Below are positions 8,207 through 43,073 of a stretch of DNA of 64,000 nt, one piece after another. The DNA is from Acidobacteriota bacterium (GTDB lineage Bacteria > Acidobacteriota > Holophagae > Holophagales > Holophagaceae). The notes beneath the pieces were generated by a model. It had not been told where the DNA came from. It ran no database searches and worked only from the letters and a program-made list of their open reading frames with translations. The translations under genes and the position numbers were made by a program. The stretch lies in the NCBI GenBank assembly GCA_016195985.1, contig JACPYP010000020.1, positions 124,001 through 188,000 of the forward strand. Reading direction: 5' to 3'. Numbering within the stretch: the first letter of the stretch is position 1; each line of letters starts with the position of its first letter.

Positions 8207-8246
8207 GGGAGTCCTCGATCGGAGCCTGAGTGAATGATAGCCACGC

Positions 8247-8923
8247 TCAGCCTCGATCTGCCTGGAGAAGTGACCAGCTCCCCGTCCGGCTCTCCTGGCG
8301 CAGCGCCGCGGCCAGATCCGACATGAACAAGTTCCTCGGAATTCGCTGGAATCCATATCCCATCAGCCCTTCATGAGGCAGCTGCCCGTCCAGCATCGTG
8401 AAGCCCCAGGCCGCGAGACGCGCGTCCAGCGCCTGCAGCGCCGCACGGCTCGCCTCCGCCTCCAGGCTGAACATGCTTTCGCCGAAGAAAGCCCCGCCCA
8501 GCGACACACCGTAGAGGCCGCCCCGCAATTCCCCCTCCCGCCAGGCCTCCACGCTGTGGGCATGGCCCTCCCGGTGCAGGTCGAGGTAGGCCTCGCGCAT
8601 CGCCCCGGTGATCCAGGTGCCGTCCTGGCCCGGCCGCGGCGCCTTCGCGCAGAGGGTGATGACCTGCTCGAAGGCCGTGTCGAACCGGATGTCGAAGGGC
8701 CGCTGGCGCAGGCTCCGGCGGGTCCGCGCAGACAGGTGCAGATGGCCCGGACGAAGCAGGGCCCGCTCTGGCGGCGACCACCACAGGAGAGGATCCTCTT
8801 CGCCGAACCAGGGAAAGATGCCGTTCCGGTAGGCGAGCAGGAGCCGCGGCACGCTGAGGTCGCCGCCGATGGCCAGAAGGCCGTCCTCAGCCAGCTCCGG
8901 ATCGGGGAAGACCAGCTGCTCCC

Positions 8924-26802: not shown

Positions 26803-27500
26803 AAATCAACGACTACCTCTCTGCCGACGAGCGGAAGCGGCTCCTCACCGCCTTTTTGCTCGTCCTTGGTTTCATCTTCATCGCCGCCTTCTTCGGCTTC
26901 ACCATCGTGCCCGGCCTGCGCTACCAGGCCCACACCCTGCCCGACGCGCCCATCCAGGCCGTCCAGGGAGAGACCGGCTGGCTGGATCCCACGGATTACC
27001 CCGCCATGGCCCGGGAGGTCATCCCTCCCATCGATCCGGCCACGGTAATGACTCCCAATGCCGCCCTCATGACCCGCGGCAAGGCTCTTTACGCTCAGAA
27101 TTGCGCCACCTGCCACGGCCCCGAGGGCAAGGGCGATGGCGCTGCCGGCAAGGGCCTCAATCCCAAGCCCCGCAACTTCACCGAGAACGCGGCATGGAAG
27201 AACGGCACCCACCTCGAGAGCATCTACAAGACGCTGGATGAGGGCATCAAGGGCAGTTCCATGGTGTCCTACAACTACCTTTCCAAGCGGGACCGCATGG
27301 CCCTGGCCCACGTCGTCCAGTCCCTGGGCGCCTTCGACCACGGCGCCAATGATCCCAAGGCCATGGCCGCGCTGGAAAAACTCTTCGCCAGCGCCGGCGA
27401 GGTGATCCCCAACCGCATTCCCGTGCGGCGGGCGGTGACGGTGCTTTGCCAGGAATACGAAGCCTCCCGCCACCAGGCGCCCGCGTCCACGATCCGCTGA
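26799..27500 (+). CDS. membrane-anchored monoheme cytochrome c
   Basis: A 233-aa protein with an N-terminal helix (LLTAFLLVLGFIFIAAFFGF) and a cytochrome c domain with CATCH followed by GPEGKGDG. Candidate Met ligands lie in GSSMVSYNYLS. It overlaps actF by 4 nt and precedes sco by 6 nt. It resembles the ActE part of the actDE fusion, so the cluster encodes two ActE-like monoheme cytochromes. It may be a further ACIII subunit or the electron link between ACIII and the oxidase. Confidence 0.88.
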   Translation: MKINDYLSADERKRLLTAFLLVLGFIFIAAFFGFTIVPGLRYQAHTLPDAPIQAVQGETGWLDPTDYPAMAREVIPPIDPATVMTPNAALMTRGKALYAQNCATCHGPEGKGDGAAGKGLNPKPRNFTENAAWKNGTHLESIYKTLDEGIKGSSMVSYNYLSKRDRMALAHVVQSLGAFDHGANDPKAMAALEKLFASAGEVIPNRIPVRRAVTVLCQEYEASRHQAPASTIR

Positions 27501-27506
27501 GGTTCC

Positions 27507-28346
27507 ATGACCACTGCGACGCTCCGGCGCACCCTCCTTCCTCTCGCTCCCTTCGCCATCGCTGCCCTTATGGGCCTTCCGGTGGGTCTGCGGGCCCAGG
27601 GGGCGCCGCCCACGCCCGCCGCCGCACCCTCGTTCAGCCCCGAGGAAGTCGGCATCAACGAGAAGCTGGGCAGCACCATCCCCCTGGATCTGGAACTGAA
27701 GGGAGAGGACGGCAAGCCGGTCACGCTGCGCCAGCTCATCGACAAGCCCACCATCCTCACCCTCAACTACTTCCGCTGTGCGGGCATCTGCACGCCCCAG
27801 CTCGGTGGAGTGGCTGAAGTGCTGAACCGCACCAAGGCGGAGCCGGGGAAGGATTTCCAGGTGCTCACCGTCAGCTTCGACGAGCGGGACGAGCCCGAGG
27901 TGGCCGCCCAGAAGCGCACCAACTACCTGGCCGAGATCACCCGTCCCTTCCCGCCCACCGCCTGGCGCTTCCTCACGGGCCCCAGCACCACCACCAAGGC
28001 CTTAGCCGATGCCGTGGGCTTCAAGTTTAAGCGCGTGAACGACGATTTCGTCCACGCCGCCGCCATCATCTTCATCAGCCCCAAGGGCGAGATCACCCGC
28101 TACATGTACGGTGTCACCTACCTGCCCGCGGACCTGCAGCTGGCCGCGCAGGAGGCCGCCCGCGGCGAGGCCCAGCCCACCATCAACAAGTTCCTGAAGT
28201 TCTGTTTCAGCTATGACCCGGCCGGACGCCGATATGTCCTGAACACCACCTCCATCGGCGCCCTGGTCATCATCCTGGCCGCCCTGGTGTTCGTGATCAC
28301 GCTGGTCCGCAAGGGGCGCAAGACCAAGTCAGAGGAGGGCCAATGA
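27507..28346 (+). CDS. SCO1/SenC copper chaperone
   Basis: A 279-aa protein with an N-terminal signal sequence, a thioredoxin-like SCO domain and a C-terminal membrane helix (GALVIILAALVFVITLV). The copper site has the Cys pair in FRCAGICTP (CxxxC) and the His in NDDFVHAAAIIF. SCO proteins deliver copper to the CuA centre of oxidase subunit II (family knowledge). It ends within an AGGAGGGCCAATGA junction that starts subunit I, with a 4-nt overlap. Confidence 0.93.
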   Translation: MTTATLRRTLLPLAPFAIAALMGLPVGLRAQGAPPTPAAAPSFSPEEVGINEKLGSTIPLDLELKGEDGKPVTLRQLIDKPTILTLNYFRCAGICTPQLGGVAEVLNRTKAEPGKDFQVLTVSFDERDEPEVAAQKRTNYLAEITRPFPPTAWRFLTGPSTTTKALADAVGFKFKRVNDDFVHAAAIIFISPKGEITRYMYGVTYLPADLQLAAQEAARGEAQPTINKFLKFCFSYDPAGRRYVLNTTSIGALVIILAALVFVITLVRKGRKTKSEEGQ

Positions 28347-29965
28347 GCACGCAAGCATCTACGGCGCAGCCAAGCTACCTGGTGGACACCGGAGCGCGCA
28401 AGGGCCTCCTGGCCTGGCTCACCACCACGGACCACAAGCGCATCGGCCTGCTCTACCTCTACTCCATGATCACCTTCTTCTTCGTGGGCGTGGGCATCGG
28501 CTTCGTTATGCGCCTGGTGCAGCTCACCACCTTCCAGAAGCTCATCACTGCCCAGACCTACAACGCCCTGTTCACGGTCCATGGCGTGATCATGATCTTC
28601 CTGTTCGTGGTGCCTGGCCTGCCCGCCATCTTCGGGAATTTCTTTCTGCCCATCCTCATCGGGGCCAAGGATGTCTCCTTCCCGCGGCTGAACCTGGCCT
28701 CCTGGTACTTCTTCATGGCCGGCGCCATCCTGGCTGTCCTCTCGCTCTTCACCGGCGGCGGCGCGCCCGACACGGGCTGGACCTTCTACGCCCCCTTCAG
28801 CCTGAAGACGGGCACCAATGTGAGCTTGGCGGTCTTCGCGGCCTTCGTGCTGGGCTTTTCCTCCATGCTCACGGGCATCAACTTCATCACCACCATCCAC
28901 CGTCTGCGCGCCCCGGGCATGAAGTTCTTCCGCATGCCCCTCATGTGCTGGGCCCTTTACTCCACGGCCTGGATCCAGCTGCTGGCCACCCCCATCGTGG
29001 CCATCACCCTGCTGCTGGTGATCCTCGAGCGCTTCTTCGGCATCGGCATCTTCGATCCCTCCAAGGGCGGCGATCCCCTGCTCTACCAGCACCTGTTCTG
29101 GATCTACTCGCACCCGGCCGTCTACATCATGATCCTGCCAGCCATGGGCGCCATCTCCGAGATCATCCCCACCTTCACCAAGCGCCCCATTTTCGGGTAC
29201 AAGGCCATCGCCTTCAGCTCCATGTCCATCGCCGGCGTGGGCAGCCTGGTGTGGGCCCACCACATGTTCACCTCAGGCATGAGCGGCATGGCCCTCATGA
29301 TCTTCTCGCTGCTGACCATGGTCGTGGCCGTGCCCAGTGCCATCAAAGTCTTCAACTGGGTGAGCACCCTCTACAAGGGCAGCATCGACTTTGAGCCGCC
29401 CCTCCTCTTCGCCCTCACCTTCATCTTCCTCTTCTGCATCGGCGGCCTCACGGGCGTCATGCAGGGGGCCCTGGCCATCAACGTGCACATCCACGACACC
29501 TACTTCATCGTGGGCCACTTCCACTATGTGATGTTTGGCGGCACGGGCATGGCGCTCTTCGCGGCCCTGCTCTACTGGTTCCCCAAGATGTGGGGAAAGA
29601 TGTACAGCAAGAAGGCCATCTACGTCTCCTGGTTCCCCATGTTCATCGGCTTCAACATGCTCTATTTCGGCATGATGATCCTCGGCATGATGGGCATGCC
29701 GCGCCGCTACTACGTGCACCTGCCTCAGTTCCACACCATGCATGTGGTGGCCACCGTGGGCAGTTGGCTGCTGGTGCTGGGCCTCATTATTTTCTTCGCC
29801 ACCCTGCTCTACGGCATCCTCAAGGGCCCCAAGGCCGAGGACAACCCCTGGGGCGGTGTGACGCTTGAATGGACCATTCCCAGCCCGCCCCCCCTTGAGA
29901 ACTTCGAGGTGATTCCCACCATCACCCGCGGCCCCTACCACTTCGATCAGCAGGAGAAAGCATGA
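28343..29965 (+). CDS. ctaD: caa3-type cytochrome c oxidase subunit I (A2 type)
   Basis: A 540-aa heme-copper oxidase core with twelve or so helices. It starts TTDHKRIGLLYLYSMITFFF and has HGVIMIFLFVVPGLPAIFGN and the CuB/heme ligands in HPAVYIM, WAHHMFT and HDTYFIVGHFHYVMFGG. The D-channel glutamate of A1 oxidases (GHPEVY) is replaced by YSHPAVY; the Tyr-Ser signature marks an A2-type oxidase (family knowledge). It reduces O2 and pumps protons. AGGAGGG precedes the ATG, which overlaps sco. Confidence 0.96.
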   Translation: MSTQASTAQPSYLVDTGARKGLLAWLTTTDHKRIGLLYLYSMITFFFVGVGIGFVMRLVQLTTFQKLITAQTYNALFTVHGVIMIFLFVVPGLPAIFGNFFLPILIGAKDVSFPRLNLASWYFFMAGAILAVLSLFTGGGAPDTGWTFYAPFSLKTGTNVSLAVFAAFVLGFSSMLTGINFITTIHRLRAPGMKFFRMPLMCWALYSTAWIQLLATPIVAITLLLVILERFFGIGIFDPSKGGDPLLYQHLFWIYSHPAVYIMILPAMGAISEIIPTFTKRPIFGYKAIAFSSMSIAGVGSLVWAHHMFTSGMSGMALMIFSLLTMVVAVPSAIKVFNWVSTLYKGSIDFEPPLLFALTFIFLFCIGGLTGVMQGALAINVHIHDTYFIVGHFHYVMFGGTGMALFAALLYWFPKMWGKMYSKKAIYVSWFPMFIGFNMLYFGMMILGMMGMPRRYYVHLPQFHTMHVVATVGSWLLVLGLIIFFATLLYGILKGPKAEDNPWGGVTLEWTIPSPPPLENFEVIPTITRGPYHFDQQEKA

Positions 29966-30564
29966 GCGGGCACGTTCATCGGGACGACCTCGGGTCCCGC
30001 CTGGGCATGTGGCTGTTCCTCGTGACGGAGATCGTCCTCTTCGGCGGCCTCTTCATCGGCTACTCGTACATGCGCTACAAGTACCCGGCGGAGTTCCATC
30101 ATGGCGGCGCGGAACTGAACGCCACCCTCGGCGTCACCAACACCCTGGTGCTGCTCACCAGCAGCCTCACGGTGGTGCTGGCCATCGTGGCCATCCAGCG
30201 CGCCGAGAAGAAGCGGGCCCTGGCCTTCCTGGGCACCACCCTAGCCCTGGGCCTCACCTTCCTGGTCATCAAATCCTTTGAATGGGGCGCCAAGTTCCAC
30301 CACGGCCTCTACCCGAACTCGCCCCATCTCGCCACGCTGCCCCCGGGCGAGCAGGTCTTCTTCGGGCTCTACTTCACCATGACCGGCCTCCACGGCGTCC
30401 ACGTCGTCGTGGGACTGGCCGTGCTGAGCGTCATGTTCTGGTGGGTGGCCACGGACCGCGTCCGTCAGGACCGCTACATCCACCTGGAGAACAGCGGCCT
30501 CTACTGGCACCTGGTGGACGTGATCTGGATCTTCCTCCTCCCGCTGTTCTACCTGGCCGCCTGA
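29962..30564 (+). CDS. ctaE: cytochrome c oxidase subunit III
   Basis: A 200-aa protein with five helices, as in the short bacterial form. Marks are LGMWLFLVTEIVLFGGLFIG, YSYMRYKYP, FGLYFTMTGLHGVHVVVGL and YWHLVDVIWIFLLPLFYLA. The ATG overlaps the subunit I stop (ATGA), with AGGAG before it. Confidence 0.95.
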   Translation: MSGHVHRDDLGSRLGMWLFLVTEIVLFGGLFIGYSYMRYKYPAEFHHGGAELNATLGVTNTLVLLTSSLTVVLAIVAIQRAEKKRALAFLGTTLALGLTFLVIKSFEWGAKFHHGLYPNSPHLATLPPGEQVFFGLYFTMTGLHGVHVVVGLAVLSVMFWWVATDRVRQDRYIHLENSGLYWHLVDVIWIFLLPLFYLAA

Positions 30565-30570
30565 TATCCT

Positions 30571-30602
30571 CCGGGGGTTCCGCGCTGCGCGCGCACCCCC
30601 GG
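30571..30602. repeat. GC-rich hairpin between ctaE and ctaF
   Basis: CCGGGGGT at 30571-30578 pairs with ACCCCCGG at 30595-30602 around a GCGC-rich core. No T run follows. In the middle of an operon it may stabilise or process mRNA and so set the ratio of subunit III to IV. Confidence 0.5.
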
Positions 30603-30653
30603 GCCCCCAACCTCGCATCCAGCCAAGCTGGACGCTCGGTCCGAGGAACTCCC

Positions 30654-30977
30654 ATGAATGAAACGCTCCATTCTCCCGATCACCACCCTTACAGTCTGGA
30701 CGAACCGCACGTCGAGCATCCGGGCTACGGCACCTTCATCAAGGTGTGGGCGGCCTTGGTGGTCCTCACCTTCTGCCTGGTGGGGCTCAGCCATGTGAGC
30801 CAGAGCTATGCGGTCTGGGGCCTGCTGACGCTGACGCCTCTCAAGGCCGGTCTGGTCTTCTACTACTTCATGCACCTGAAATACGAAGGATCACTCTTCA
30901 AGATCGTCATCCTGGTGACCCTTGGCACACTGCTGATCTTCTTCGCCCTGCTCTTCTCCGACGTCGCTTTCCACTGA
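30654..30977 (+). CDS. ctaF: caa3 oxidase subunit IV
   Basis: A 107-aa protein with three helices: FIKVWAALVVLTFCLVGLSH, a central pair around TLTPLKAGLVFYYFMHLKYE, and IVILVTLGTLLIFFALLFSD. This is the usual prokaryotic cytochrome C oxidase subunit IV pattern. GAGG lies 7 nt before the ATG. An 89-nt spacer with a hairpin separates it from ctaE. Confidence 0.9.
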   Translation: MNETLHSPDHHPYSLDEPHVEHPGYGTFIKVWAALVVLTFCLVGLSHVSQSYAVWGLLTLTPLKAGLVFYYFMHLKYEGSLFKIVILVTLGTLLIFFALLFSDVAFH

Positions 30978-30985
30978 GGCCCACC

Positions 30986-31942
30986 ATGGATTGGATGAAC
31001 CAAGCCGCCATTTCGGCCCAGAAGTCCGACGCCGTCTTTTTCTACGTGTTCGGGCTCTCCGTGGCCTTCCTGATCTTCATCACGGCGCTGATGATCTACT
31101 TCGTGGTGCGCTACAACAAGAAGCGCAACCCCGTCGCCTCGCAGATCGACGGCCATGTGGGCCTGGAGATCGTTTGGACCACCATTCCCCTGGTGCTGTT
31201 CCTGTCCATCTTCTACTACGGCTGGACGAACTACGAATACATGAGCCAGGCGCCCCGAGATTCCATGGCCGTGAAGGTCACGGCCCGGCAGTGGAGCTGG
31301 TCCTTCGAATACCCCAACGGCAAGCAGAGCAAGGTGCTCTTCGCACCCCTCGGCAAGCCTATGAAGGTCGAAGTGCGCAGCGCGGACGTGGTGCACGGTT
31401 TCTTCGTGCCCTCCTTCCGCCTCAAGATCGACGCCGTGCCTTCCCGCACCAACACCACCTGGTTCCAGGCCACCAAGGTGGGCTCGTACGACATCGAATG
31501 CACCGTCATCTGCGGCGTCGATCACAGCCTCATGCTCAGCAAGGTGATCGTGGTGCCTGAAGAGGAATTCAAGGCCTGGTACTTCGGCGGCGAGGATGCG
31601 CCTGAGCCCGGCAAGGCCTTCCGGGCCGCCGAGGCCCACCCTGATCTCAGCGGCATGCCCCAGGGTCTGGCCGTGCTTACGTCCAAGGGCTGCCTGGCCT
31701 GCCACTCGGTGGACGGCAAGCCCAAGGTCGGACCCACCCTCAAGGCCCTTTACGGCCGCGAAGAGCAGATCCTCATGGCCGGCGCCATGAAGATCATCCG
31801 CGTGGATGACGCCTACCTGCGCCGGGCCATCACCAGCCCCTCCGAGCAGGTGGTGCGCGGCTATCCACCCGCCATGCCCCAGACCCAGCTCAGCGACCGG
31901 GAGCTGGACGAGGTCGTGAACTACATCAAGACCTTGAACTAA
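30986..31942 (+). CDS. ctaC: cytochrome c oxidase subunit II with fused cytochrome c
   Basis: A 318-aa protein: two N-terminal helices, a cupredoxin domain with the CuA motif CTVICGVDHSLM, and a C-terminal cytochrome c domain with CLACH and a late Met (PAMPQTQLSD). The covalent heme domain makes the enzyme caa3-type. It lies last, after subunit IV, whereas subunit II comes first in most operons of this kind. No clear signal peptide or lipobox is seen; the first helix is the anchor. A palindromic element begins one base after the stop. Confidence 0.94.
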   Translation: MDWMNQAAISAQKSDAVFFYVFGLSVAFLIFITALMIYFVVRYNKKRNPVASQIDGHVGLEIVWTTIPLVLFLSIFYYGWTNYEYMSQAPRDSMAVKVTARQWSWSFEYPNGKQSKVLFAPLGKPMKVEVRSADVVHGFFVPSFRLKIDAVPSRTNTTWFQATKVGSYDIECTVICGVDHSLMLSKVIVVPEEEFKAWYFGGEDAPEPGKAFRAAEAHPDLSGMPQGLAVLTSKGCLACHSVDGKPKVGPTLKALYGREEQILMAGAMKIIRVDDAYLRRAITSPSEQVVRGYPPAMPQTQLSDRELDEVVNYIKTLN

Positions 31943-32060
31943 AAAAGCGGAACACAGAGGGCGCAGAAATCATGCAGAGGACGCAGAGAACTGAAAAACG
32001 AATCCCTTTGCTTTTCCTCTGTGCCCCTCTGTGAGAATTCTGTGCCCTCGTTCCGCTTTT
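31943..32060. repeat. 118-bp imperfect palindrome after the oxidase genes
   Basis: The ends AAAAGCGGAAC (31943-31953) and GTTCCGCTTTT (32050-32060) are exact complements. The interior arms pair imperfectly and are made of CACAGAGG/CGCAGAGA-like units: ACACAGAGGGCGCAG, GCAGAGGACGCAGAG, and on the other side CCTCTGTGCCCCTCTGTG. The T run at the right end could make it a terminator for the act-cox operon. Its style matches the 27-bp palindrome at 13203-13268. Confidence 0.8.
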
Positions 32061-32098
32061 AAATCCTCCACCCCTGCCGCATCCTCCAAGAGAATCCC

Positions 32099-32992
32099 TT
32101 GAGCGCAGCCACCGTGGCCCTTCCCAAACCCAGTCCGGTATCCACCTTTCTCGAGCTGACCAAGCTCCGGATCTCGGGTGCCTCCACCTTCACGGCGGCG
32201 GCGGGCTACGTGGCCTTTCTCCGGGGGGCCAACGCGGGGCTGATCACCACGCTCCTGGGCATCCTCCTGCTCGCCATGGGCAGCAGCGCCCTGAACGAGG
32301 TGCAGGAGCACAAGCTCGACGCTCTCATGCCCCGCACGGCCAACCGTCCCATTCCCCGCGGCGATCTTTCGCCGGGACTGGCCACCGTCATCGCCGTGGT
32401 CATGGCCGTTTCCGGCTTCCTGGTGCTGTGGCTGGCCCACAACCTCACGTCGGCCCTGCTCGGGGCCCTGGCCCTGGGCTGGTACAACGGCTTCTACACG
32501 CCTCTCAAGCGGGTGAGCGCCTTCGCCGTGGTGCCCGGATCTCTCATCGGCGCCCTCCCCCCGGCCATCGGCTGGACCGCCGCGGGCGGCAGCGCCGCCG
32601 ATCCTTCCGTGCTGGCCCTGGCCTTCGTCTTCTTCATCTGGCAAGTGCCCCATTTCTGGCTGCTGGTGGGCCTGCACGCCGAAGGCTACGAGGAGGCGGG
32701 CTATCCCACGCTGGTCAAGCTCTTCGGCCGCCCCCGCCTGTCGCGCCTCACCTTCACCTGGACCTGCGGCACCGCCGCGGCCTGTGGCCTGCTGCCCCTC
32801 TTCCGCGTGCTGGTGTCCCGGCCGGCGGAGATCATGCTGGGCATCGGCGCCCTCTGGCTGATCATCGGATCCCTGCCTCTCCTGAAACCAGGACAGGACG
32901 CCCCTCTCTACCGGCGCGTCTTCATGAACATCAACCTCTTCGCCCTGGTGCTCACGGCGGCAGTCATCCTGGATCCCTTCTTCAGCCGCTGA
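32099..32992 (+). CDS. ctaB: protoheme IX farnesyltransferase (heme O synthase)
   Basis: A 297-aa UbiA-type prenyltransferase that makes heme O for heme A-type oxidases. Motifs are LTKLRISGASTFTAAAGY, NEVQEHKLDALMPRTANRP (the Asp-rich site is N-x3-E-x2-x-D in this family) and YTPLKRVSAFAVVPGSLIGA. Nine or so helices are seen. The start is probably TTG at 32099, with AAGAGA nearby; no ATG gives a full-length protein. It follows the oxidase genes, its usual neighbours, but the palindrome before it may mark a separate transcript. Confidence 0.92.
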   Translation: MSAATVALPKPSPVSTFLELTKLRISGASTFTAAAGYVAFLRGANAGLITTLLGILLLAMGSSALNEVQEHKLDALMPRTANRPIPRGDLSPGLATVIAVVMAVSGFLVLWLAHNLTSALLGALALGWYNGFYTPLKRVSAFAVVPGSLIGALPPAIGWTAAGGSAADPSVLALAFVFFIWQVPHFWLLVGLHAEGYEEAGYPTLVKLFGRPRLSRLTFTWTCGTAAACGLLPLFRVLVSRPAEIMLGIGALWLIIGSLPLLKPGQDAPLYRRVFMNINLFALVLTAAVILDPFFSR

Positions 32993-33125
32993 CCCAATTC
33001 CTCAACCATCCCCCGTGGCCCCGGGTCCCAGGGGATAGGCCGACACGCCGCGCATGGGAGGATGTCCCAGAACCGGATGTCTCCGGGAAAACATTCCCGA
33101 ATCCACTCCGGCACCTGGACAACCC

Positions 33126-36100
33126 ATGCCCCCTCCCACCGCCATCCCCCCCAGCACGGCGGCCCTCCTTGCCTTTGCACGCCTGGCGCAAGGACATCTC
33201 GGGGAAGACGGTCTGCTCCTGGACGGGGAGGCCGAGGGCGGCCTGCGACAGGCCTCCGTCCGGCTCGGTGACGGCCCGTCCACCAAGCGGGCCGCTGAAA
33301 CGTTGGCGCTTCAACTCGGCCCCTCGGCGGCCTATGTCCTCACCGCGAAAACGCCAGCGGGGGGCGCGCCATTCAGCGGGCACATCCAGATCAGCGGCCG
33401 GGAAGCCATGCTGGAGATGGAATCCGGCACGACGCCCACCATGGTGCCCTGGGTGCTGCGCCACTTCGCACGCCTGCACCGAGGCATCCTGGAGGCGCCC
33501 GAAGCCTCTCCGGAGATCGCATCCATGGCCGATGAAGAGGAGCGCGCCCTGCTGCTGGGGCCCTTCTCCGGGCCTGCCTTCGATCCGGAACTCAGCCTGC
33601 CGGAATCCCTCGTGGATCGCTTCGAGGCGACCGTGCGCCGTCATGGCGCCAGACCCGCCGTGGAGGAGGACGGTCGCACCTGGACCTATGCCGAGCTGAA
33701 CGCCATGGCGGAGGACATCGCCCTTGGATTGCAGCATCGCGGCCTGGGGCCGGGCTCCCTGGTGGGTCACTGGATGCCCCGGGGCCTGCCGGCCTATGCG
33801 GCCCTTCTGGGAATCCTCAAGTGCGGGGCCGCCTACGTGCCCCTGGATCCTGGCCTCCCGTCCGCGCGAGTGCGGCAGGTGGCCGTGGAGTGCGGCATGC
33901 ACCTGCTGCTGGCCTCCGCTTCGCTGGGAACGGTCCCCGGTCTTCCTTGTCCCATGTTCGATCCAGCGCTCGACTTCGCGCGCGATCCAGGGGCTTTCAG
34001 CGCTGCGGGCCCGGGCCCCGGAGATCTGGCCTACGTCATCTTCACCTCAGGCTCGACGGGCACTCCCAAGGGCGTGCCCATCACGCACCGTTCGGCCTGC
34101 ACCTTGGTGCGGGCCGAACAGCGGCTCTTCGCGCCATGCGCGGAAGATCGCGTCTTCCAGGGATTCTCCCTGGCCTTCGACGCCTCAGTGGAAGAGCTGT
34201 GGCTGGCCTGGGCCAGCGGGGCCTGCCTGGTGGCGGGGACGCCCTCCCTGATGCAGGCAGGGCCGGATCTCGGGAGGCGGCTCACCGAAGCGGGGATCAC
34301 CGTGCTGTCCACGGTGCCCACACTGCTGGGCCTCCTTTCGGACCCCGTCCCCACGCTTCGGTTGCTCATTCTCGGCGGCGAAGCCTGCCCCGAAGATCTG
34401 GTGGCCCACTGGTGGCGGCCGGGCCTGCGGATGGTGAACACCTACGGCCCCACCGAGGCCACGGTCATCTCCACGTGGACCGATCTGAGGCCCGGCCAGG
34501 CGGTCACCATCGGCAAGGCCGTGCCCAATGACCGGATCTACGTGCTGGATGCACAGAGTCGCCTGTGCCCCATCGGCGTGCCCGGCGAGTTGCACCTCTC
34601 GGGCGTGGGCCTGTCGAGCGGCTACCTGGGCCGCACCGATCTCACGGCCGAGCGGTTCATCACCAATCCCTTTCACGACGGCCCCTTCACGGAACGCCTC
34701 TACCGCACGGGCGACCGGGTGCGCTTCAATGCCGAGGGCCATCTCGAATTCCTCGGCCGCATCGACACCCAGATAAAATTGCGGGGCTTCCGCATCGAGC
34801 TGGAGGAGATCGAGGCTGCGTTGCGCCAGGAACCGGAGGTGCTGGCGGCGGCGGTCGCCCTCTGGAAGGCGGACGGCCCGGAACGCCTGGTGGCCTACGT
34901 CGTGCTGCGACCAAGCGCCCGTTTCGACGCAGACGGCCTGCTGCGAGGCCTGCGCCAGCGCCTGCCCAGCTACATGGTGCCCGCCTCCGTCGACGCCCTG
35001 GGCGAGTTGCCCACCCTCGCCAGCGGAAAGCTCGACCGCAAGCGCCTTCCGGCGCCCAGCCAGAGACAGGCCCCCTCTGCGGACGGCGAAGGGCTGACGC
35101 CCACCCAGCGGACTCTGCGCGAACAGTGGACGCAACTCTTCCAGGGCCGCGCGCCGGGCCTGGACGAGGACTTCTTCCGCGACCTGGGCGGGCATTCGCT
35201 GTTGGCCGCGGCCATGGTTTCAACGCTCCGCCCGCGGACCGGCTTCGAAAACCTGGCGGTGCCCGATGTGTATGCCTTCCCCACCCTGAGGGCCCTGGCC
35301 GCTGAACTGGATGGGCGCCGGGCCTCGGAGCCGGGCCCGGCCAAGGCGAAGCTTCCGCCCGCAGAGCCGCTTCCGGCCTGGCGCTACGGCCTGTGCGTCC
35401 TGGCCCAGCTCCTGTCGCTCTACCCCCTGCTGGGTTTCTACGCGCTGCAGTGGCTCAGCCCCTACCTCGTCTACAGCTGGAGCCAGGATCACGACATCTC
35501 CCGCTTCCTGGGCATCAGCGCCGCCCTGCTGTCGCTGATCCTCATCTATCCGGCCATGTTCGTCCTATCCATCGCCGCCAAGTGGCTGCTGCTGGGCCGT
35601 ATCAGGCCCGGCCGCCATCGTGTCTGGGGGTTCTACTACTGGCGCTGGTGGCTGACCCAGCGGATCATCGCGGCCACGCCCCTGGACTACCTGGTGGAAT
35701 CGCCCTGGCTGGCCCTCTACTTCCGCCTCATGGGCGCCCGCATCGGCAGCAGCGTGCACCTGGCCACCACCTCCCTCGCCGCCTTCGACCTCACCCGCAT
35801 CGGCGACGAGGCCAGCATCGGCCAGGATGCGCGCCTGAGCGGCTACACGCTGGAGGATGGTTTCCTGGAGCTGGGCCCCATCCGCGTCGGCCGGCGCTGC
35901 TACGTGGGCAACCGGTCCATCCTGTGCGCGGGCACCGTCATGGAGGACGGCGCCATCCTGGAGGACCTGAGCCTGCTGCCGGGGGGCGCCCGGATCGCCA
36001 CGGCCCAGCGCTGGGCGGGCTCCCCCGCCCGTCCTCTGCCACCTCGCACCTCCGATCGTTCGCGGCTGAGCGCAGACCTGCCCCGTCCTTCACGGGGGCG

Positions 36101-38072
36101 CCAGATCGTTTTCGCGGCCATCCAGGCCCTGGGGGCTTGCATGGTCCCCATGGCCTTCCTGCTCGCCATCTTCCCGGGCCTGGTCCTCATCAACGAGCTA
36201 TACGCGTCCACGCCGGGCTACTTCGCGTACCTGGTGGTGGCCCCAGGGGTGGCCCTTTCCTTCGTGGCGCTGCTGGCCCTGGAAATCGCCGCCGCCAAGT
36301 GGCTGCTCCTGGGCCGGGTGCGGCCCGGCACCTACGGCCTGTACAGCGGCTTCGTCCTGCGGAAATGGTACGTGGACCGCCTCATGGCCGTGGGCCTCGA
36401 CCTGCTGGCGCCCCTCTACGCCACCCTGTATCTGGCCCCCTGGTTCCGCCTGCTGGGCGCGAAACTGGGCGCCTGGGCCGAGGTCTCCACGGCGGGTTCC
36501 GGCTGCCCGGATCTGCTCGAGATCGGGGATGAAAGCTTCATCGCGGACTGCGTGTCCTTCGGCCCGCCGCGCGTGGACCTGGGCCAGGTCATCTTGGCCA
36601 CCACCCAGGTGGGGCGGCGGGCCTTCGTGGGCAACAGCGCCCTGGTCCCCTCCGGGACCGCCCTCGGCGACAGCGTGCTGGTGGGCGTCCTGTCCGTGCC
36701 CCCCGGCGATCCCCTGGAGGCGGCCCGCACGGACAGCTCCTGGCTGGGCTCCCCGGCCATCTACCTGCCGCACCGCCAGGAAAGCGCCGCCTTCGGCGAG
36801 GCGGCCACCTTCCGGCCGCCCAAGCGGATGATCCTGTTGCGCGCCTTCATCGAGCAATTCCGGGTTCTGGCTCCGGCCACGGGGTTCGTGGTGATCACCA
36901 GCCTGCTGCTTACGGCCCTCACGGAAATCGAAGAAGCCTCCTCCCTGGGCGCCGCGGCCCTCTCGCTGCCCCTGCTCTACTTCGCGGGCGGCCTTGCGGC
37001 CTGCCTCTTCGTGGTGGCGGTGAAGTGGGCGGCCATCGGACGTTACAAGCCCTGCGAGAAGCCCCTCTGGTGCAGCTTCATCTGGCGCACCGAACTGGTG
37101 AGCGGGCTCCACGAGAACCTGGCTGATTCCTGGCTGCTGCGCCTGCTCGCGGGGACGCCCCTGGTGCCCCTGTATTTCCGCCTGCTGGGCGCCCGCATCG
37201 GCAGCCGCGTCTGCATGGAAAGCACCTGGCTGACGGAGTACGATCTCGTGGACATCGGCGACGGCGCCCAGCTGAACTCCGATTGCACCATCCAGACCCA
37301 CCTCTTCGAGGACCGGGTGATGAAGATGGACCGCATCCACCTGGGGGCCGGATGTTCCGTGGGCATGGATTCGGTGGTGCTCTACGGTTCGCGCATGGAA
37401 TCCGGCTCGGTCCTCGGCGATCTGTCGCTGGTGATGAAGGGGGAAGCCCTGCCCGCCGGCACCCGGTGGGAAGGGTCGCCGGCGAGGCCCTCCCAAAGAA
37501 GCCTGGAAACGATGCGGATCCCCGGCGATGCTCCAGGCCAGGGCCATGGCGGGGTCCATCCTCCGGCGGACATGCTCCTCCTCGCGGGTACCTGCGAGAT
37601 CCCCGGGCTGGCGAAGCTGGAGCCCGACGCCTGCGGGAGGCCCCGGGCCCTGGGCCCGGACGGACGGCCCGTATCCATGAGCGTCTCGCGCGCGCCCGGA
37701 GCCCACCTCGTCGCCTGGTCAGCACGAGGCCGGGTGGGCGCGGACCTGGAATGCCTGGGGCCCTCTCCGGCACTCGAAGTGGCCTCGGCCCTCTTTCTTC
37801 CTGGAGAACGCGCCTGGGCCGACACCTTGCCGCCCCAGGAACGTTGGAGGGGACACCTGCTGCTCTGGACGGCCAAGGAGGCCGTGATGAAAGCCCTGGG
37901 CCAAGGCTTCGCCTTCGGCATGGATCAGATTGAATTGGAACCCGCGGACGGCCCCGGCCTGCGGCTGCGCAGCCTCTGCGGAAGCGCGCGCCTGGCCCGG
38001 GGGTGGCGCGTCGAGCACCAGGAGCGCGAAGTGGCGGGACGGACCTACCTGGTGGCGCTCGTGGTGGGCTGA
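33126..38072 (+). CDS. Pls/PosA-type single-module peptide synthetase fused to a phosphopantetheinyl transferase
   Basis: A 1648-aa protein from the ATG at 33126 (an in-frame ATG at 33054 adds 24 unlikely residues; neither has a strong ribosome binding site). There is no standard condensation domain at the N terminus. The adenylation domain has TSGSTGTPKG (from 307), AFDASVEELW (the A4 Asp suits an alpha-amino acid), NTYGPTEATV, YRTGDR and LASGKLDRKRLP. The carrier has DLGGHSL with Ser691. Then three repeats follow, each with membrane helices, KWLLLGR-like (819, 1058, 1300), a left-handed hexapeptide part and a final GSPARP-like end. This is the C-terminal architecture of epsilon-poly-lysine synthetase (Pls). 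Residues ~1470-1648 are a Sfp/AcpS-like transferase: GADLE (Asp1540, Glu1542) and WTAKEAVMKALG (1581-1592). It could charge its own carrier and make an isopeptide or amide product at the membrane. Confidence 0.9.
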   Translation: MPPPTAIPPSTAALLAFARLAQGHLGEDGLLLDGEAEGGLRQASVRLGDGPSTKRAAETLALQLGPSAAYVLTAKTPAGGAPFSGHIQISGREAMLEMESGTTPTMVPWVLRHFARLHRGILEAPEASPEIASMADEEERALLLGPFSGPAFDPELSLPESLVDRFEATVRRHGARPAVEEDGRTWTYAELNAMAEDIALGLQHRGLGPGSLVGHWMPRGLPAYAALLGILKCGAAYVPLDPGLPSARVRQVAVECGMHLLLASASLGTVPGLPCPMFDPALDFARDPGAFSAAGPGPGDLAYVIFTSGSTGTPKGVPITHRSACTLVRAEQRLFAPCAEDRVFQGFSLAFDASVEELWLAWASGACLVAGTPSLMQAGPDLGRRLTEAGITVLSTVPTLLGLLSDPVPTLRLLILGGEACPEDLVAHWWRPGLRMVNTYGPTEATVISTWTDLRPGQAVTIGKAVPNDRIYVLDAQSRLCPIGVPGELHLSGVGLSSGYLGRTDLTAERFITNPFHDGPFTERLYRTGDRVRFNAEGHLEFLGRIDTQIKLRGFRIELEEIEAALRQEPEVLAAAVALWKADGPERLVAYVVLRPSARFDADGLLRGLRQRLPSYMVPASVDALGELPTLASGKLDRKRLPAPSQRQAPSADGEGLTPTQRTLREQWTQLFQGRAPGLDEDFFRDLGGHSLLAAAMVSTLRPRTGFENLAVPDVYAFPTLRALAAELDGRRASEPGPAKAKLPPAEPLPAWRYGLCVLAQLLSLYPLLGFYALQWLSPYLVYSWSQDHDISRFLGISAALLSLILIYPAMFVLSIAAKWLLLGRIRPGRHRVWGFYYWRWWLTQRIIAATPLDYLVESPWLALYFRLMGARIGSSVHLATTSLAAFDLTRIGDEASIGQDARLSGYTLEDGFLELGPIRVGRRCYVGNRSILCAGTVMEDGAILEDLSLLPGGARIATAQRWAGSPARPLPPRTSDRSRLSADLPRPSRGRQIVFAAIQALGACMVPMAFLLAIFPGLVLINELYASTPGYFAYLVVAPGVALSFVALLALEIAAAKWLLLGRVRPGTYGLYSGFVLRKWYVDRLMAVGLDLLAPLYATLYLAPWFRLLGAKLGAWAEVSTAGSGCPDLLEIGDESFIADCVSFGPPRVDLGQVILATTQVGRRAFVGNSALVPSGTALGDSVLVGVLSVPPGDPLEAARTDSSWLGSPAIYLPHRQESAAFGEAATFRPPKRMILLRAFIEQFRVLAPATGFVVITSLLLTALTEIEEASSLGAAALSLPLLYFAGGLAACLFVVAVKWAAIGRYKPCEKPLWCSFIWRTELVSGLHENLADSWLLRLLAGTPLVPLYFRLLGARIGSRVCMESTWLTEYDLVDIGDGAQLNSDCTIQTHLFEDRVMKMDRIHLGAGCSVGMDSVVLYGSRMESGSVLGDLSLVMKGEALPAGTRWEGSPARPSQRSLETMRIPGDAPGQGHGGVHPPADMLLLAGTCEIPGLAKLEPDACGRPRALGPDGRPVSMSVSRAPGAHLVAWSARGRVGADLECLGPSPALEVASALFLPGERAWADTLPPQERWRGHLLLWTAKEAVMKALGQGFAFGMDQIELEPADGPGLRLRSLCGSARLARGWRVEHQEREVAGRTYLVALVVG

Positions 38073-38561
38073 TCAGCCAAAGATCGCGAGAGAGCTGTCG
38101 GATCCGCTCGTATCGCCCAGGGCGTCGAAGAGGGTGGTGGTTTTCGAACCCTGGAGAAGGTTCAGCAGCGCGGCCGGATTGGAGTTCTTGCTCTGGCTGT
38201 TCATCAGGGCCGTGAGTAGGGCCGAATTGGCGCCCGAGGCGCCATAGGTGGCGCTGCCCTGCAGGCTGCCCAGCACAGTGGCCAGGCTCTGGGGGTTCTG
38301 CTTGAAGTAGGTCTTCAGCTTTTCGATGTCGCCCGAGACATCCTTTTGCGTCGTGAAGAGGTCGCTCAGGGCCTTGGTCACGTCCTCCGGGGCCTTGGTG
38401 AGCTGCTGGGCCTCCGGCGACAGGGTCATCAGATCCCCCAGGAGGCCCGCGAGCCCGCTGGCGTTCTGGGAGGAGGAAGAGGAGCCCAAGGTGTTCAGCT
38501 GCTGTAGGAGCAGGGTTCCAATGCTCGACGACTGGTCCGAACTGACGGGCGTAAGGCTCAT
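38073..38561 (-). CDS. 162-aa protein of unknown function
   Basis: AGGAG lies 5 nt before the ATG. The protein is soluble and low in complexity, rich in Ser, Leu, Gln and Asn (SSSSSQNASG, GSATYGASGAN, SQSKNSNPA), with leucine-rich helical stretches such as LAGLLGDLMTLSPEAQQLT and no Cys. It has no signal peptide. Its stop abuts the stop of the synthetase gene with no spacer (38072/38073), and it is divergent from the ATPase/TPR gene. I do not recognise a family. Confidence 0.7.
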   Translation of the reverse strand: MSLTPVSSDQSSSIGTLLLQQLNTLGSSSSSQNASGLAGLLGDLMTLSPEAQQLTKAPEDVTKALSDLFTTQKDVSGDIEKLKTYFKQNPQSLATVLGSLQGSATYGASGANSALLTALMNSQSKNSNPAALLNLLQGSKTTTLFDALGDTSGSDSSLAIFG

Positions 38562-38741
38562 GCGCGCTCCTGGGCAGCCTTTGCAGGCGTAAAGGCCGTG
38601 AGCAAAATGCCCGCCAAGTTCTCGAAGACGGAAAGCAGAGCATCGTCAGCGCGCCACTGTGGGCGCCCGGGCGATTCCTGCCTCGGTTACACTTCCGGCC
38701 ATGCCCACCCAGCGCGTCAGCCGAGCCCCCGGGGGCCAACC

Positions 38742-41700
38742 GTGGATGTGACGACCTTCCTCGGGGCGCATCGCTATGCCTGGCTTCAGGAACTGGGCCG
38801 CAGTCCGGCCTGTTCCTGGCATCTCCTCCGCCGCGAATCGGACGGCACCCGCTTCCTGGCACAGATCTGGTCGCCCCGTCCCGCGGACCGTGAGATGGAT
38901 CACATCCGGGACACCTACCTCTCCCGGTTCCTGGACGCGTCTCCCCTGGATCCCCTGAACAGCCACCTGGGCTTCGACGAGGAGCAGGCCTGGTACCTCC
39001 AGGCCATTCAGGGCACGCCCCTCTCCCGCCTCTGGGCGGGTTGGGGAGATCCGCAGCGGGAGGCCTTGCTGGAGCATCTCGGCACACTGACGGCTCAGGA
39101 TCCCCATCCCCGGCTGCTCCACCCGGAGGCCATCACCTTCCGGCCTGGCCTCACCCAGATCCCGCGGGTCATCGGGGCCGCGCCGTGGGAGACCGCGGCC
39201 GTGCCCGGTTTCCTGCCCCAGACCGCGCCCGTGCCCGCCCTTTCGGAGGATCTTCCCTGGAAGCTGCCCAGGGACCTGTCGGAACCCCATTCGCGGCCGC
39301 TGCGCGGGCGCAGCCAGGAGCTCCCCTACCTCAAATCGTTGATGCTGGGCCTCAGCGCCCCCATCCCCATGGAGCGCATCGTCCTCCTGCAGGGGGAGGA
39401 AGGTGTGGGCAAGGAGCACCTGGCCGCCTGGGCCTGCGCCGTGGCCGAGGGCGAGGGCATCTGGGTGCACCACCTGGCCGCCTCGGACCAGGAGCCCCCC
39501 GGGCGCTTTTTGGGCCGCATGGTGGATGCCCTGCTCTCGGGCAACGAGGTGGATTTCTACGCAGAGCGGCCCGAGGCCGCCAAGGCCCTGTCGCTCCGGG
39601 TGCAGGCCTTCTCCTTCCTCACGGGCGGACGGCACGTGCACGGCCAGGACGCCGGGCCCGCGCCCGAAGAGGTGCGGGCGGCCCTGGAGGCCCTGGATTT
39701 CGCGGGCCTCCAGCAGCGCCGCCTCATCCACCTGTCCGGCCTGGACCGCGCCACGCCTGGAGTGCTGGCCCTGATCCGCGAGATGGTGGAGAGATCCTCC
39801 TTGCCCTGGCTGCTCTCGCTCACCACCGGGGCCCAGGGCGCGGGCCTGAAGCCCTTCATCGCGCAGCTGCTGTCCGAGGCCGCCGCGGCCGTGGTCGGCG
39901 TGAACCGCCTGGAAGACCGGGATCTGCGGATGGTCCTGGGGGATTTCCTGGGTCCGCAGGAACTTCCCGAAGCCTTCCAGGCGGACCTGATTTCCCAAAG
40001 CCTCGGCAATCCGGGCCTGTTGCGGAACCTCCTGGAACTGGCCCAGCAGTCCGGCGCCCTGTCCTGGGGGAAGGATCACTGGATCCTGGCCCCAGGACAG
40101 CGAGTAGCGCTGAAGGCCGAGGACGATCTCATGCGGCAGATCTTCCTGGGGCGCCTGCAGCGCCTCACGCCCGCTTCCGCCGCCCTGGTGCGCCTGCTGG
40201 CCCTTGGGGAGCGGCCGCTTCCGGCCCTGCCCCTGCAACGCCTGCTGGGCCTCCAGGATGATGCTTTGGAGGACGCGATCCTCGGCGCCGTGGCTTCGCA
40301 GCTGGTGGAGTCCCAGCAGGGACAGTCGCTGATGCCCGAACCGCGGTGGCGGGAGCTGGTGCTCGCCCATACGCCCCAGCCGGAACTCAAGCGCCTGGCC
40401 CGGGCCCTTTCGGCCGCCTTTCGGGAACAGGGCTGGGACTGCCCCATTCCCATGCAATCCCTCGCTTCCGACGAGGCCACCGCCCTCGCCTCGGTGCTGG
40501 CCTCGCTCCTGGAGGGACCCGCGGGGTCCCTCCAGGAGACCCTGCGGACCGTCAACCAGGCGCTGCAACTGAAACCCTCCCCGCTTCAGGAAGCCCACTT
40601 GCGCGAGCACCTGGCAGACGCCTGGGCTGCCGGCGCCCGCGAACCGGGGGAAATCTCCACGCTTTCTCCGTCGGAAGAAGCCCTCGCCTCCTTGGGCCTC
40701 GCCCTCAAAGCGCTCTCAAAGGCTCCCCAGGAAGCGGATCTCCACCTCAAGGAGGCGCGTCTTTTCCGCAAGCGGGCCCTCCTGCTGCTCCACCTCCGCC
40801 GCCCTTCCGAGGCTCAGGAAGCCCTCCAGGCCGCCGCCGAGCGGTTGACTGGCCATCCGCACCACGCGGAGCAGGCCCGGCTCCGGCTGGCCCTGGGCCG
40901 GCTGCACCTGCTTCAGGGGCACCTCACCAAGGGCATCCGCGCGTTGGAAGAAGGCCTTCATCCCCAGGCGGGCTTCAAGCCCCAGCCCCAGGATCAGGCG
41001 GCCCTGCTGCTCACCCTGGGGCAGGCCCTGGGGGGGCAGTCCCAGTTCCTCCGGGCTGCGGGGTTGCTGCAGTCCGCCCAGCGCATGTTGGAGCACAGCC
41101 AGAGTTTTCGCAGCCTGGTTCCGGTGCAGATCGCCCTGGCCGAGGTGCGACTGACTCAAGGACAACCGGAAACCTGCGCCATCCTTCTAAGAGAGGCGCT
41201 GCAAACGGCCCGAATGCAGGGAGACACCCTCCTCCAGGCCAAAGGGCATCTCGCCCTGGGCACGGTGCGCAGCCTCCAGCAGTGGCTGGGCCCCGCCCTG
41301 TCCCACCTGGACCGGGCCCTGAGCCGCACCGAGCAATCCGGCGACGCAGCGCAACGCTCCGTCATCCAGATCTGGCGGGCCCGCACCTACGCGGCCATGG
41401 GCGACACCGTGGCCGCGGACCATGCGCAGTTCCAAGCCCTGGCCGCGCAGCCCCCCGTCATGTCCCCGGAGGAACAAGGAGACAGCCTCTTCCTCCAGGG
41501 CGAGGTGGCCCGCTTCCGCAGCACCTGGCGGGACACCATCCGGCTCTACCGGTCCGCCGCAGACGTCTACGAATCCTCGGGGCTGCTTTGGCGGCAGCGG
41601 CTGGCCCTGCTGCTCTACAGCCAAGCCGTGGCCCGGGAAGCCCGGCAGTCCAGGCGGGAAGCGCCGGAACAGGGCTGGGCCATCCTCGAAAACCTCAAGG

Positions 41701-42146
41701 GCCCGGTGGAGGGCTCCGGCTCCCGCTGGCTCGACCTGGAATGGCACCGGGCCCATGCCCTGCTGTTGTCCACCGTGCCCGCCACCGAGGCGGTGGTGCA
41801 GGAGACACTGGAGGCCTGGGGCCAGGTTCAGGCCGCCGCCAGGGACATGCTGTTCCCGGCCCAGGTGATGGAAGCCAGCGCAGAAAGCGCCCAACTGCTG
41901 CTGGCGCGAGGCGAGAAACTGGGCGCCCGGTCCCGCATCCAGGATGCATTCCCGAGTTTCCAGCAGCTCTGGTCGCGCCTTCCCGCCACCCACGAGACCA
42001 GCTTCCTGGGCCGGGAGGATATGCATCATTTCCGGCAGACCGTGGAGGCCGTGGGCCTCAAATTCATCCAGCCGGAACGCGCCGATCCCCTGGTGGACTG
42101 GACGCCGACGCAGATGGATCTCCCGGCCTTTCCCGATCCGGAATGA
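38742..42146 (+). CDS. large ATPase/TPR protein with possible pseudokinase N terminus
   Basis: About 1134 aa. No ATG fits; GTG at 38742 (or 38748) is my choice, and a GTG at 38598 adds residues that do not look like protein. The first ~150 residues recall a degenerate protein kinase: YLQAIQGTPLSRLW and LLHPEAITFRPG sit where a hinge and a catalytic loop could be, but no HRD or DFG is present. Next is a NACHT/STAND-like ATPase: P-loop GEEGVGKEH (Lys224), with Glu in place of the usual Ser/Thr, and RRLIHLSGLDRA as a Walker B-like strand. The C-terminal ~550 residues are helical repeats of TPR type (AEQARLRLALGRLHLLQGHL, AKGHLALGTVRSLQQWLGPA). No output domain is recognised. It starts 63 nt before panB, on the same strand. 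Confidence 0.72.
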   Translation: MDVTTFLGAHRYAWLQELGRSPACSWHLLRRESDGTRFLAQIWSPRPADREMDHIRDTYLSRFLDASPLDPLNSHLGFDEEQAWYLQAIQGTPLSRLWAGWGDPQREALLEHLGTLTAQDPHPRLLHPEAITFRPGLTQIPRVIGAAPWETAAVPGFLPQTAPVPALSEDLPWKLPRDLSEPHSRPLRGRSQELPYLKSLMLGLSAPIPMERIVLLQGEEGVGKEHLAAWACAVAEGEGIWVHHLAASDQEPPGRFLGRMVDALLSGNEVDFYAERPEAAKALSLRVQAFSFLTGGRHVHGQDAGPAPEEVRAALEALDFAGLQQRRLIHLSGLDRATPGVLALIREMVERSSLPWLLSLTTGAQGAGLKPFIAQLLSEAAAAVVGVNRLEDRDLRMVLGDFLGPQELPEAFQADLISQSLGNPGLLRNLLELAQQSGALSWGKDHWILAPGQRVALKAEDDLMRQIFLGRLQRLTPASAALVRLLALGERPLPALPLQRLLGLQDDALEDAILGAVASQLVESQQGQSLMPEPRWRELVLAHTPQPELKRLARALSAAFREQGWDCPIPMQSLASDEATALASVLASLLEGPAGSLQETLRTVNQALQLKPSPLQEAHLREHLADAWAAGAREPGEISTLSPSEEALASLGLALKALSKAPQEADLHLKEARLFRKRALLLLHLRRPSEAQEALQAAAERLTGHPHHAEQARLRLALGRLHLLQGHLTKGIRALEEGLHPQAGFKPQPQDQAALLLTLGQALGGQSQFLRAAGLLQSAQRMLEHSQSFRSLVPVQIALAEVRLTQGQPETCAILLREALQTARMQGDTLLQAKGHLALGTVRSLQQWLGPALSHLDRALSRTEQSGDAAQRSVIQIWRARTYAAMGDTVAADHAQFQALAAQPPVMSPEEQGDSLFLQGEVARFRSTWRDTIRLYRSAADVYESSGLLWRQRLALLLYSQAVAREARQSRREAPEQGWAILENLKGPVEGSGSRWLDLEWHRAHALLLSTVPATEAVVQETLEAWGQVQAAARDMLFPAQVMEASAESAQLLLARGEKLGARSRIQDAFPSFQQLWSRLPATHETSFLGREDMHHFRQTVEAVGLKFIQPERADPLVDWTPTQMDLPAFPDPE

Positions 42147-42209
42147 CGGCAGCGGCATTCGGTGGTCTCATGGAGGGTCACGGCTTCGACCTTCCAGCGG
42201 AGACCTTCC

Positions 42210-43073
42210 ATGAGCCACCTGCCCGTTGAATCACGCCCACGCGTCACCCTGCCCCAGCTGCACAGCTGGCACCACGCGGACCGGAAGCTCGTCATGGTCA
42301 CCGCCTACGATGCGGTCACCGCCCGCATTGCGGATGCCGCCGGCGTGGACATCATCCTGGTGGGCGACAGCGTGGGAAACGTGTGCCTGGGCTTCGAGAA
42401 CACGCTGCCCGTGAGCATGGCCATGATGAACCACCACCTGGAGGCCGTGGCCCGCACGCATCCAACGGCCATGCTGGTGGCGGACATGCCCTACCTCAGC
42501 TTCCACCTGAGCGTGGAGGATACCCTGCGCAACGCCGGTGGATTCCTGCAGCGGGGTGCCCAGGCGGTGAAGCTGGAGGGCGGCGCCAAGCGCCTGCCCA
42601 TGATCCACGCGCTGCTGGACGCGGAGATCCCCGTCATGGGGCACCTGGGCCTCACCCCGCAAAGCGTCAACCCCATGGGGGGCTTCAAAGTGCAGGGGAA
42701 GCACCGGGGCGACGCGCTCCGCCTGCTTGACGACGCCCAAAGACTGCAGGATGCCGGTTGCTTCAGCATGGTGCTGGAGGGCATCCCTGCGGATCTGGCG
42801 GCCCGCATCACCGAGACGGTCAAGATCCCCACCATCGGCATTGGGGCCGGCCCCCAGTGTTCGGGACAGGTGCTGGTCTTCCACGACGTGCTGGGCCTGC
42901 TGCCCGGCCCATCCCCCAAGTTCGTCCGCCGCTATGCCGAAGGATTCGAGGATCTACGGAACGCCTTGGCGGCCTGGGCCGAGGATGTGAGGGGGGGAGG
43001 GTTCCCCGACGGACGGGAATCCTATACCCTTCCAGAAGCCGTTCGTCCGGCTTTGACCCAGTGGGCTCCCTGA
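42210..43073 (+). CDS. panB: 3-methyl-2-oxobutanoate hydroxymethyltransferase
   Basis: A 287-aa TIM-barrel enzyme making ketopantoate from ketoisovalerate and methylene-tetrahydrofolate. The ATG at 42210 has GGAG 7 nt before it. Motifs are KLVMVTAYDAVTARIADAAG, DIILVGDSVGNV, DMPYLSFHLS, AVKLEGGAK, VMGHLGLTPQSVN and PTIGIGAGPQCSGQVLVFHD. It is the first step of the panB-panC-panD group, which supplies pantothenate for CoA. Confidence 0.95.
   Translation: MSHLPVESRPRVTLPQLHSWHHADRKLVMVTAYDAVTARIADAAGVDIILVGDSVGNVCLGFENTLPVSMAMMNHHLEAVARTHPTAMLVADMPYLSFHLSVEDTLRNAGGFLQRGAQAVKLEGGAKRLPMIHALLDAEIPVMGHLGLTPQSVNPMGGFKVQGKHRGDALRLLDDAQRLQDAGCFSMVLEGIPADLAARITETVKIPTIGIGAGPQCSGQVLVFHDVLGLLPGPSPKFVRRYAEGFEDLRNALAAWAEDVRGGGFPDGRESYTLPEAVRPALTQWAP

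Follow-up and report, generated by a model that had tools for sequence, protein, structure and literature searches.

Domain organization of the fusion protein

The window, meaning the whole analyzed stretch of 64,000 nucleotides, contains an open frame of 1648 aa at 33126..38072 (+), in which an adenylation domain, a carrier domain, a Pls-type membrane region and a 4'-phosphopantetheinyl transferase (PPTase) domain lie on one chain, and this pls–PPTase fusion gene is kept in 12 further genomes. The start at 33126 is preferred over an upstream ATG at 33054, which would give a product of 1672 aa, because the similarity of the relatives begins at 33126. The AMP-binding adenylation domain at 33621..34628 (+) matches PF00501 with an E-value of 1.6e-70 and is followed by its C-terminal subdomain at 34806..35030 (+), where PF13193 is over the Pfam cut-off; TIGR01733 is also over its NCBIfam cut-off. 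The peptidyl carrier (thiolation) domain at 35157..35306 (+) scores 30.9 bits against PF00550 (cut-off 20.8), and its GGHSLL motif contains Ser691 (codon 35196-35198, +), the predicted phosphopantetheine site. The Pls/PosA region at 35403..37484 (+) matches TIGR02353 with 654.6 bits against a cut-off of 423.1 (E 1.8e-196; NCBIfam) at profile positions 2-695 of 695, indicating that the membrane region is complete. Hydropathy analysis predicts six strong transmembrane segments in three pairs (residues ~756-774, 799-817, 1004-1022, 1036-1054, 1247-1265 and 1281-1299; peaks of at least 1.8), with an extra borderline peak of 1.64 inside the second tandem domain of the region. Since the number of predicted spans is even, both the adenylation–thiolation (A–T) part and the C-terminal PPTase would be on one side of the membrane. 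A variable linker of ~50 aa (37485..37631, +), recognized by its identity, dN/dS and pLDDT, leads into the Sfp-like PPTase domain at 37560..38069 (+), which was identified by PF01648, by its structural model and by its match to Sfp. The PF01648 score is 53.1 bits against a cut-off of 25, the range given for the PPTase domain being 53-58 bits, and the PPTase motifs are GRP (residues 1504-1506), GADLE (1538-1542) and WTAKEA (1581-1586).

These Pfam and NCBIfam matches agree with the sequence-only reading of the locus, which had described a single 1648-aa chain with an adenylation domain, a carrier with Ser691 and a C-terminal Sfp-like enzyme. Its three membrane repeats correspond to the domains that lie in tandem within the one TIGR02353 match, with the six predicted transmembrane segments between them, and it had placed WTAKEA correctly but started GADLE at 1539 instead of 1538. 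The A–T–membrane arrangement with six transmembrane segments resembles that of the Streptomyces epsilon-poly-L-lysine synthetase (Pls) and the Acinetobacter baumannii delta-poly-L-ornithine synthetase PosA, in which the membrane part has three tandem C-terminal domains and no PPTase is present (PMC8117764, PMC10522769). Those enzymes stop after the third tandem domain and depend on a separate PPTase, whereas the fusion protein adds a PPTase domain. Some fused members also differ from Pls and PosA in having an N-terminal extension, which is absent in the other fused proteins. In the window protein, alignment places this extension, of ~145 aa, at 33126..33560 (+). It has no Pfam match even at an E-value of 10, and hhalign gives a weak match to the tail of a condensation domain (probability 43.6, 35 columns), so the extension is perhaps a decayed condensation-domain tail.

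Structure and conservation of the PPTase domain

Structure prediction of the end region, which the sequence-only reading had called for, gives an Sfp fold. The AlphaFold model of the C-terminal domain, built from seven related sequences, has a mean pLDDT of 83, and both Foldseek and VIA-align return Bacillus Sfp, solved together with a carrier protein (4mrt_A), as its best match among known structures (Z 14.6, rmsd 2.9, 156 residues aligned, model residues 28-195). The model covers both lobes of the pseudo-dimeric Sfp fold, whereas AcpS and the fungal fatty acid synthase (FAS) PPTase domain match its second half only. A phmmer search of the domain against solved structures returned no matches, the sequence identity being too low. 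In a joint model of the last Pls domain and the PPTase, the Pls part has a pLDDT below 50 and the PPTase part is again well folded.

GRP, D-x-E and KEA-x-x-K are invariant in an alignment of 7 PPTases, and the domain carries the W-x-x-KEA-x-x-K and D-x-E motifs of Sfp-type (group II) enzymes. Near the CoA site, where a histidine would be expected, the window protein has Arg and the relatives have H, K or R. Group II PPTases are larger than 220 aa (PMC4103896), and the fused domain, with ~170 folded residues and ~170-195 aa overall, is shorter than such a free monomer. Judged by its model, the fused PPTase resembles a group II enzyme in its predicted way of working but is not a stand-alone member of the group. 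Pairwise dN/dS has a median of 0.38 in the PPTase core, against 0.18 in the final 300 aa of the Pls region and 0.65 in the linker. These values suggest that selection maintains the PPTase domain, though less tightly than it does the Pls region, and leaves the linker free to drift. Mean identity in the linker is 31%, and the pLDDT is below 50 over its first half.

Distribution of the fusion

PPTases are normally separate proteins. A scan of ~85,000 species genomes for the junction region detected 12 genomes with the fusion, every one from Holophagaceae/Geothrix, so that the fused set with the window comprises 13 genomes, including that of the isolate Geothrix limicola Red804. Geothrix are soil and freshwater bacteria known for iron reduction. 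One of the 12 genomes contributes just two 445-aa end-of-contig fragments, both of which still cross the junction, and the remaining 12 scan loci (11 in Streptomyces and one in Elusimicrobia) have little or no match past the Pls part. The scan used two peptide patterns, which distant fusions may escape. TIGR02353 is over its cut-off in 11 of 396 Acidobacteriota genomes, and among these 11 the fusion is confined to the window's genus, all of whose members in this set are fused except the split G020. In Actinomycetota, Pls is present in 24 of 396 genomes; the frame lengths there do not point to a C-terminal PPTase, and the extra length of the longest checkable frames lies at the N-terminus. None of 46 plasmid-borne Pls matches the whole query, and none of the 30 listed matches beyond the Pls region; within Pseudomonadota, the survey covered plasmid-borne Pls only. 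In the phylum-wide search with PF01648, the matches listed score above the range of the fused domain, leaving room for further fusions. Within the sampled groups a Pls with its own PPTase is rare, as the sequence-only reading had expected.

An assembly or sequencing artefact that joins two overlapping genes would also produce such a chain, and in G020, a Geothrix species, the same two parts are indeed separate, with an ATGA overlap and one nucleotide different at the junction: the Pls frame ends at a TGA that overlaps the ATG of the next gene behind a GGGGGCGGAG stretch. An artificial join was nevertheless rejected and is hardly credible, because a single frame runs through the junction in 12 further genomes, with differing linker sequences. 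The G020 Pls moreover groups among the fused proteins, where the window protein is its sister, indicating that its split is a later event, unless it is itself a homopolymer sequencing error. If the split is real, G020 manages with two proteins, suggesting that the covalent fusion is dispensable.

Probable origin from a gene pair

In a tree of the Pls part, all fused proteins and the split G020 protein form one clade with a support of 100, and the sister group consists of Pls without the fusion from a different Holophagaceae genus; the support values come from a quick tree in which the relevant nodes are highly supported. In G408, a member of a sister genus in the Holophagaceae, the start of the PPTase gene overlaps the stop codon of pls (GTGA): the pls frame ends with CCG TGA, and the PPTase frame opens with GTG AGG. 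Outside the fused clade, no closer relative of the fused PPTase was found than this G408 PPTase (PF01648, 39.5 bits), at 37% identity. A PPTase gene also directly follows pls on plasmids of Sphingomonas parapaucimobilis, with a 4-nt overlap, and of Rhizobium sp. CCGE531, with an 8-nt gap, whereas no PPTase adjoins pls in the Acinetobacter, Azospirillum, Streptomyces and Rhodococcus records checked. These pls–PPTase pairs suggest that the fusion was most likely derived, by a single event, from a translationally coupled gene pair.

Genomic site and neighboring genes

The fusion gene sits after ctaB (heme o synthase; 32099..32992, +), which forms the left flank of the site, in the window, G. limicola and two metagenome-assembled genomes, as does the split pair in G020. 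Downstream, in the syntenic subclade, lies a 162-aa ORF with no family match (38073..38561, −), and then a 1182-aa TPR-like protein gene with a weak TPR_12 match (38598..42146, +), which bounds the occupied site on the right. Four pls-free Geothrix species have the TPR-like gene immediately after ctaB, with panB next, indicating that the fusion gene and the 162-aa ORF fill a site left vacant in those species. The fusion gene lies at different locations in other subclades, neighborhoods differ between subclades, and no conserved biosynthetic neighbors were found. The behavior of the fusion gene is that of an accessory gene with no partners.

A cytochrome c oxidase operon at 26670-32992 encodes cytochrome c, a Sco1-like protein, COX1, COX3, COX2 with a fused cytochrome c, and CtaB. 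Since it lies on the same strand 133 nt upstream, co-transcription with the fusion gene is possible. The panB gene at 42162-43073 encodes a step toward pantothenate and CoA, but its proximity to a CoA-using PPTase is probably due to chance, since pls-free genomes, too, have panB after this TPR-like gene. At another fusion locus (L046, 8340-10293, minus strand; likewise L047 and L048), small Ser/Ala/Gln-rich or His-rich ORFs lie between the fusion gene and the right flank, on the opposite strand.

Other PPTases and carriers in the host genomes

The window genome has two PF01648 matches, the fused PPTase and a free AcpS-like protein of ~143 aa, and four PP-binding matches. Both families were searched in a sample of 26 genomes of the same genus, 6 with and 20 without pls. 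A second PF01648 match besides AcpS is present in all 6 pls-bearing genomes and in 1 of the 20 pls-free ones (G007), where the second PPTase is close to an NRPS-like A-domain gene of its own (G007:C5, L118, ~7572-8594). In this sample the PPTase that goes with pls is the sole Sfp-type PPTase of the pls-bearing Geothrix, and pls-free Geothrix have AcpS only, except for G007. The lack of another Sfp-type PPTase in Geothrix suggests that the fusion gene may be independent of its host and makes it look like a self-sufficient, portable one-gene pathway.

Adenylation code and predicted product

Alignment to PosA gives the code D-A-E-S-I-G-T-V-I in all fused proteins, with a tenth position read as (K) in the window protein; the reading was calibrated on PosA, whose code was recovered exactly as published. 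The Streptomyces Pls relatives have D-A-E-S-I-G-T-V-V, which differs at one position. The Asp and Glu at positions 1 and 3, shared with Pls and PosA, are those of a pocket for diamino acids, the Glu at position 3 binding the side-chain amine, and position 2 sets the chain length: Ala for lysine, Met for ornithine and Phe for diaminopropionate (PMC10522769). The near identity to the Streptomyces code and the lysine-marking Ala suggest that the substrate is likely to be L-lysine and the product, by the same token, epsilon-poly-L-lysine. The sequence-only reading had offered a homopoly(amino acid) or an amino-acylated membrane or surface molecule; the code favors the former and would narrow it to lysine, the latter being kept as an alternative.

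Other members of the family have different codes and architectures. The code of the Sphingomonas synthetase, DMEHNGTVT, is ornithine-like. A second group of Pls, unfused and ~35% identical (L044 in G004, L045 in G003, L103, L107-L109 and L119), has the code DSECYGGVT, in one case DSECYGSVT, as in a Bdellovibrionales enzyme reported to activate arginine (PMC10522769); G004 and G003 possess both kinds of Pls. Two Pls-like proteins of 1705 and 1710 aa in Acidobacteriota (L110 in G376:C12 and L111 in G401:C14) represent a different C-terminal fusion, to a TraX-like membrane domain (PF05857; E 6.7e-9 for G376), and have the code DGSFVATTD and a separate PPTase gene nearby.

Proposed mechanism of self-activation

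These observations lead to the hypothesis, which we consider probable, that the fusion protein, having arisen once, is a self-activating Pls that makes epsilon-poly-L-lysine and whose PPTase primes its own carrier; catalysis, action in cis, substrate and polymer are all predicted properties. The PPTase would move phosphopantetheine from CoA onto Ser691 of the same chain or of a neighboring copy, the adenylation domain would activate L-lysine and load it onto the carrier, and the three membrane-anchored Pls domains would link the lysines through the side-chain amine. The six predicted spans would place both the A–T part and the PPTase in the cytosol, where CoA is available. The built-in PPTase may thus let a single accessory gene function without help from the host.

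The part of this hypothesis most open to revision is the product. A self-activating enzyme could instead polymerize another diamino acid or give lysine to a membrane lipid or surface molecule, since codes differ within the Pls family, the substrate of some members being ornithine, diaminobutyrate, beta-lysine or arginine (PMC10522769), and the literature searched contains no report of a polymer from Geothrix. A code only one position away from that of the Streptomyces Pls relatives, with the Ala that marks lysine (PMC10522769), and a complete and conserved TIGR02353 region make such a product unlikely.

The target of the PPTase could also be another one. An active fused PPTase that mainly serves other PCP-type carriers in trans, the fusion being a carry-over from an operon and not an adaptation for self-activation, would fit the presence in the window genome of the four PP-binding matches, one of which (C18:303068) is beside an adenylation-like gene, and of no other Sfp-type PPTase. 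The pls-free Geothrix retain genes of the acyl-CoA-synthetase and A-domain-like kinds and, in all but one case, lack an Sfp-type PPTase; moreover, the PPTase accompanies pls in each pls-bearing genome of Geothrix and is encoded next to it in relatives, so that a role mainly in trans is improbable. We regard as still less probable a catalytically dead domain with another role, such as oligomerization or CoA sensing, with the carrier activated by AcpS or another enzyme. The shortness of the domain and the replacement of the CoA-contact histidine by another basic residue in several members would be in keeping with loss of activity, but D-x-E and A-K-E-A-x-x-K do not vary among the members aligned, a dN/dS of 0.38 and a full Sfp-like fold argue for a working enzyme, and the genome lacks another Sfp-type PPTase. 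Self-activation with lysine as the substrate is thus the reading that we favor.

Relation to known systems and significance

PosA has been primed with Sfp in vitro (PMC10522769). Integrated (group III) PPTases have been described as confined to fungal FAS and some Streptomyces polyketide synthases (PKS) (PMC4103896), and elsewhere also in plants and bacterial PKS (PMC3909215). Those of fungal type I FAS and of enediyne PKS such as SgcE and CalE8 are thought to activate the carrier in cis (PMC4103896, PMC3909215), and the fusion protein resembles these enzymes in having PPTase and carrier on one chain, in a single open frame in 13 genomes. It differs in its host protein, which is a Pls/NRPS-type homopolymer synthetase instead of the FAS or PKS, the only hosts given for group III in PMC4103896, and in its occurrence in bacteria outside Streptomyces; unlike the fungal FAS domain, its PPTase resembles the whole two-lobed Sfp fold. 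The pls–PPTase pairs of S. parapaucimobilis, Rhizobium sp. CCGE531 and G408 have the same order, Pls and then an Sfp-like PPTase, with a 4-nt overlap in two of the three, but encode two proteins where the fusion gene encodes one chain.

No integrated PPTase in an NRPS or a Pls is described in the literature searched, which covers few subscription journals. The sequence-only reading would have fallen with the lack of a PPTase fold, a sequencing error joining two genes or many characterized fusions in the literature; an Sfp fold is predicted, the fusion is present in 12 further genomes, and the literature searched holds no characterized Pls–PPTase fusion. Its description of an undescribed system is too strong, since Pls, integrated PPTases of fungal FAS and enediyne PKS, and adjacent pls–PPTase pairs are all known. 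It is the combination of Pls and an integrated PPTase, and its association with hosts that have no other Sfp-type PPTase, that is apparently new, as far as we are aware. There is an even chance that it represents the first NRPS-type synthetase with an integrated PPTase that acts in cis, forming a host-independent polylysine pathway of a single gene that passes between bacteria devoid of Sfp-type PPTases and whose evolutionary steps (coupled pair, fusion and re-split) are kept in living relatives.

The fused, paired and re-split states in related genomes provide a clean example of domain fusion from an overlapping gene pair. If the Pls is self-priming, this would explain how a lysine-polymer gene functions in hosts without a PCP-active PPTase, and the gene may offer a single-gene epsilon-polylysine tool for hosts such as E. 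coli, with no added sfp. Geothrix, and with it the Acidobacteriota, would join the likely makers of cationic homopolymers.
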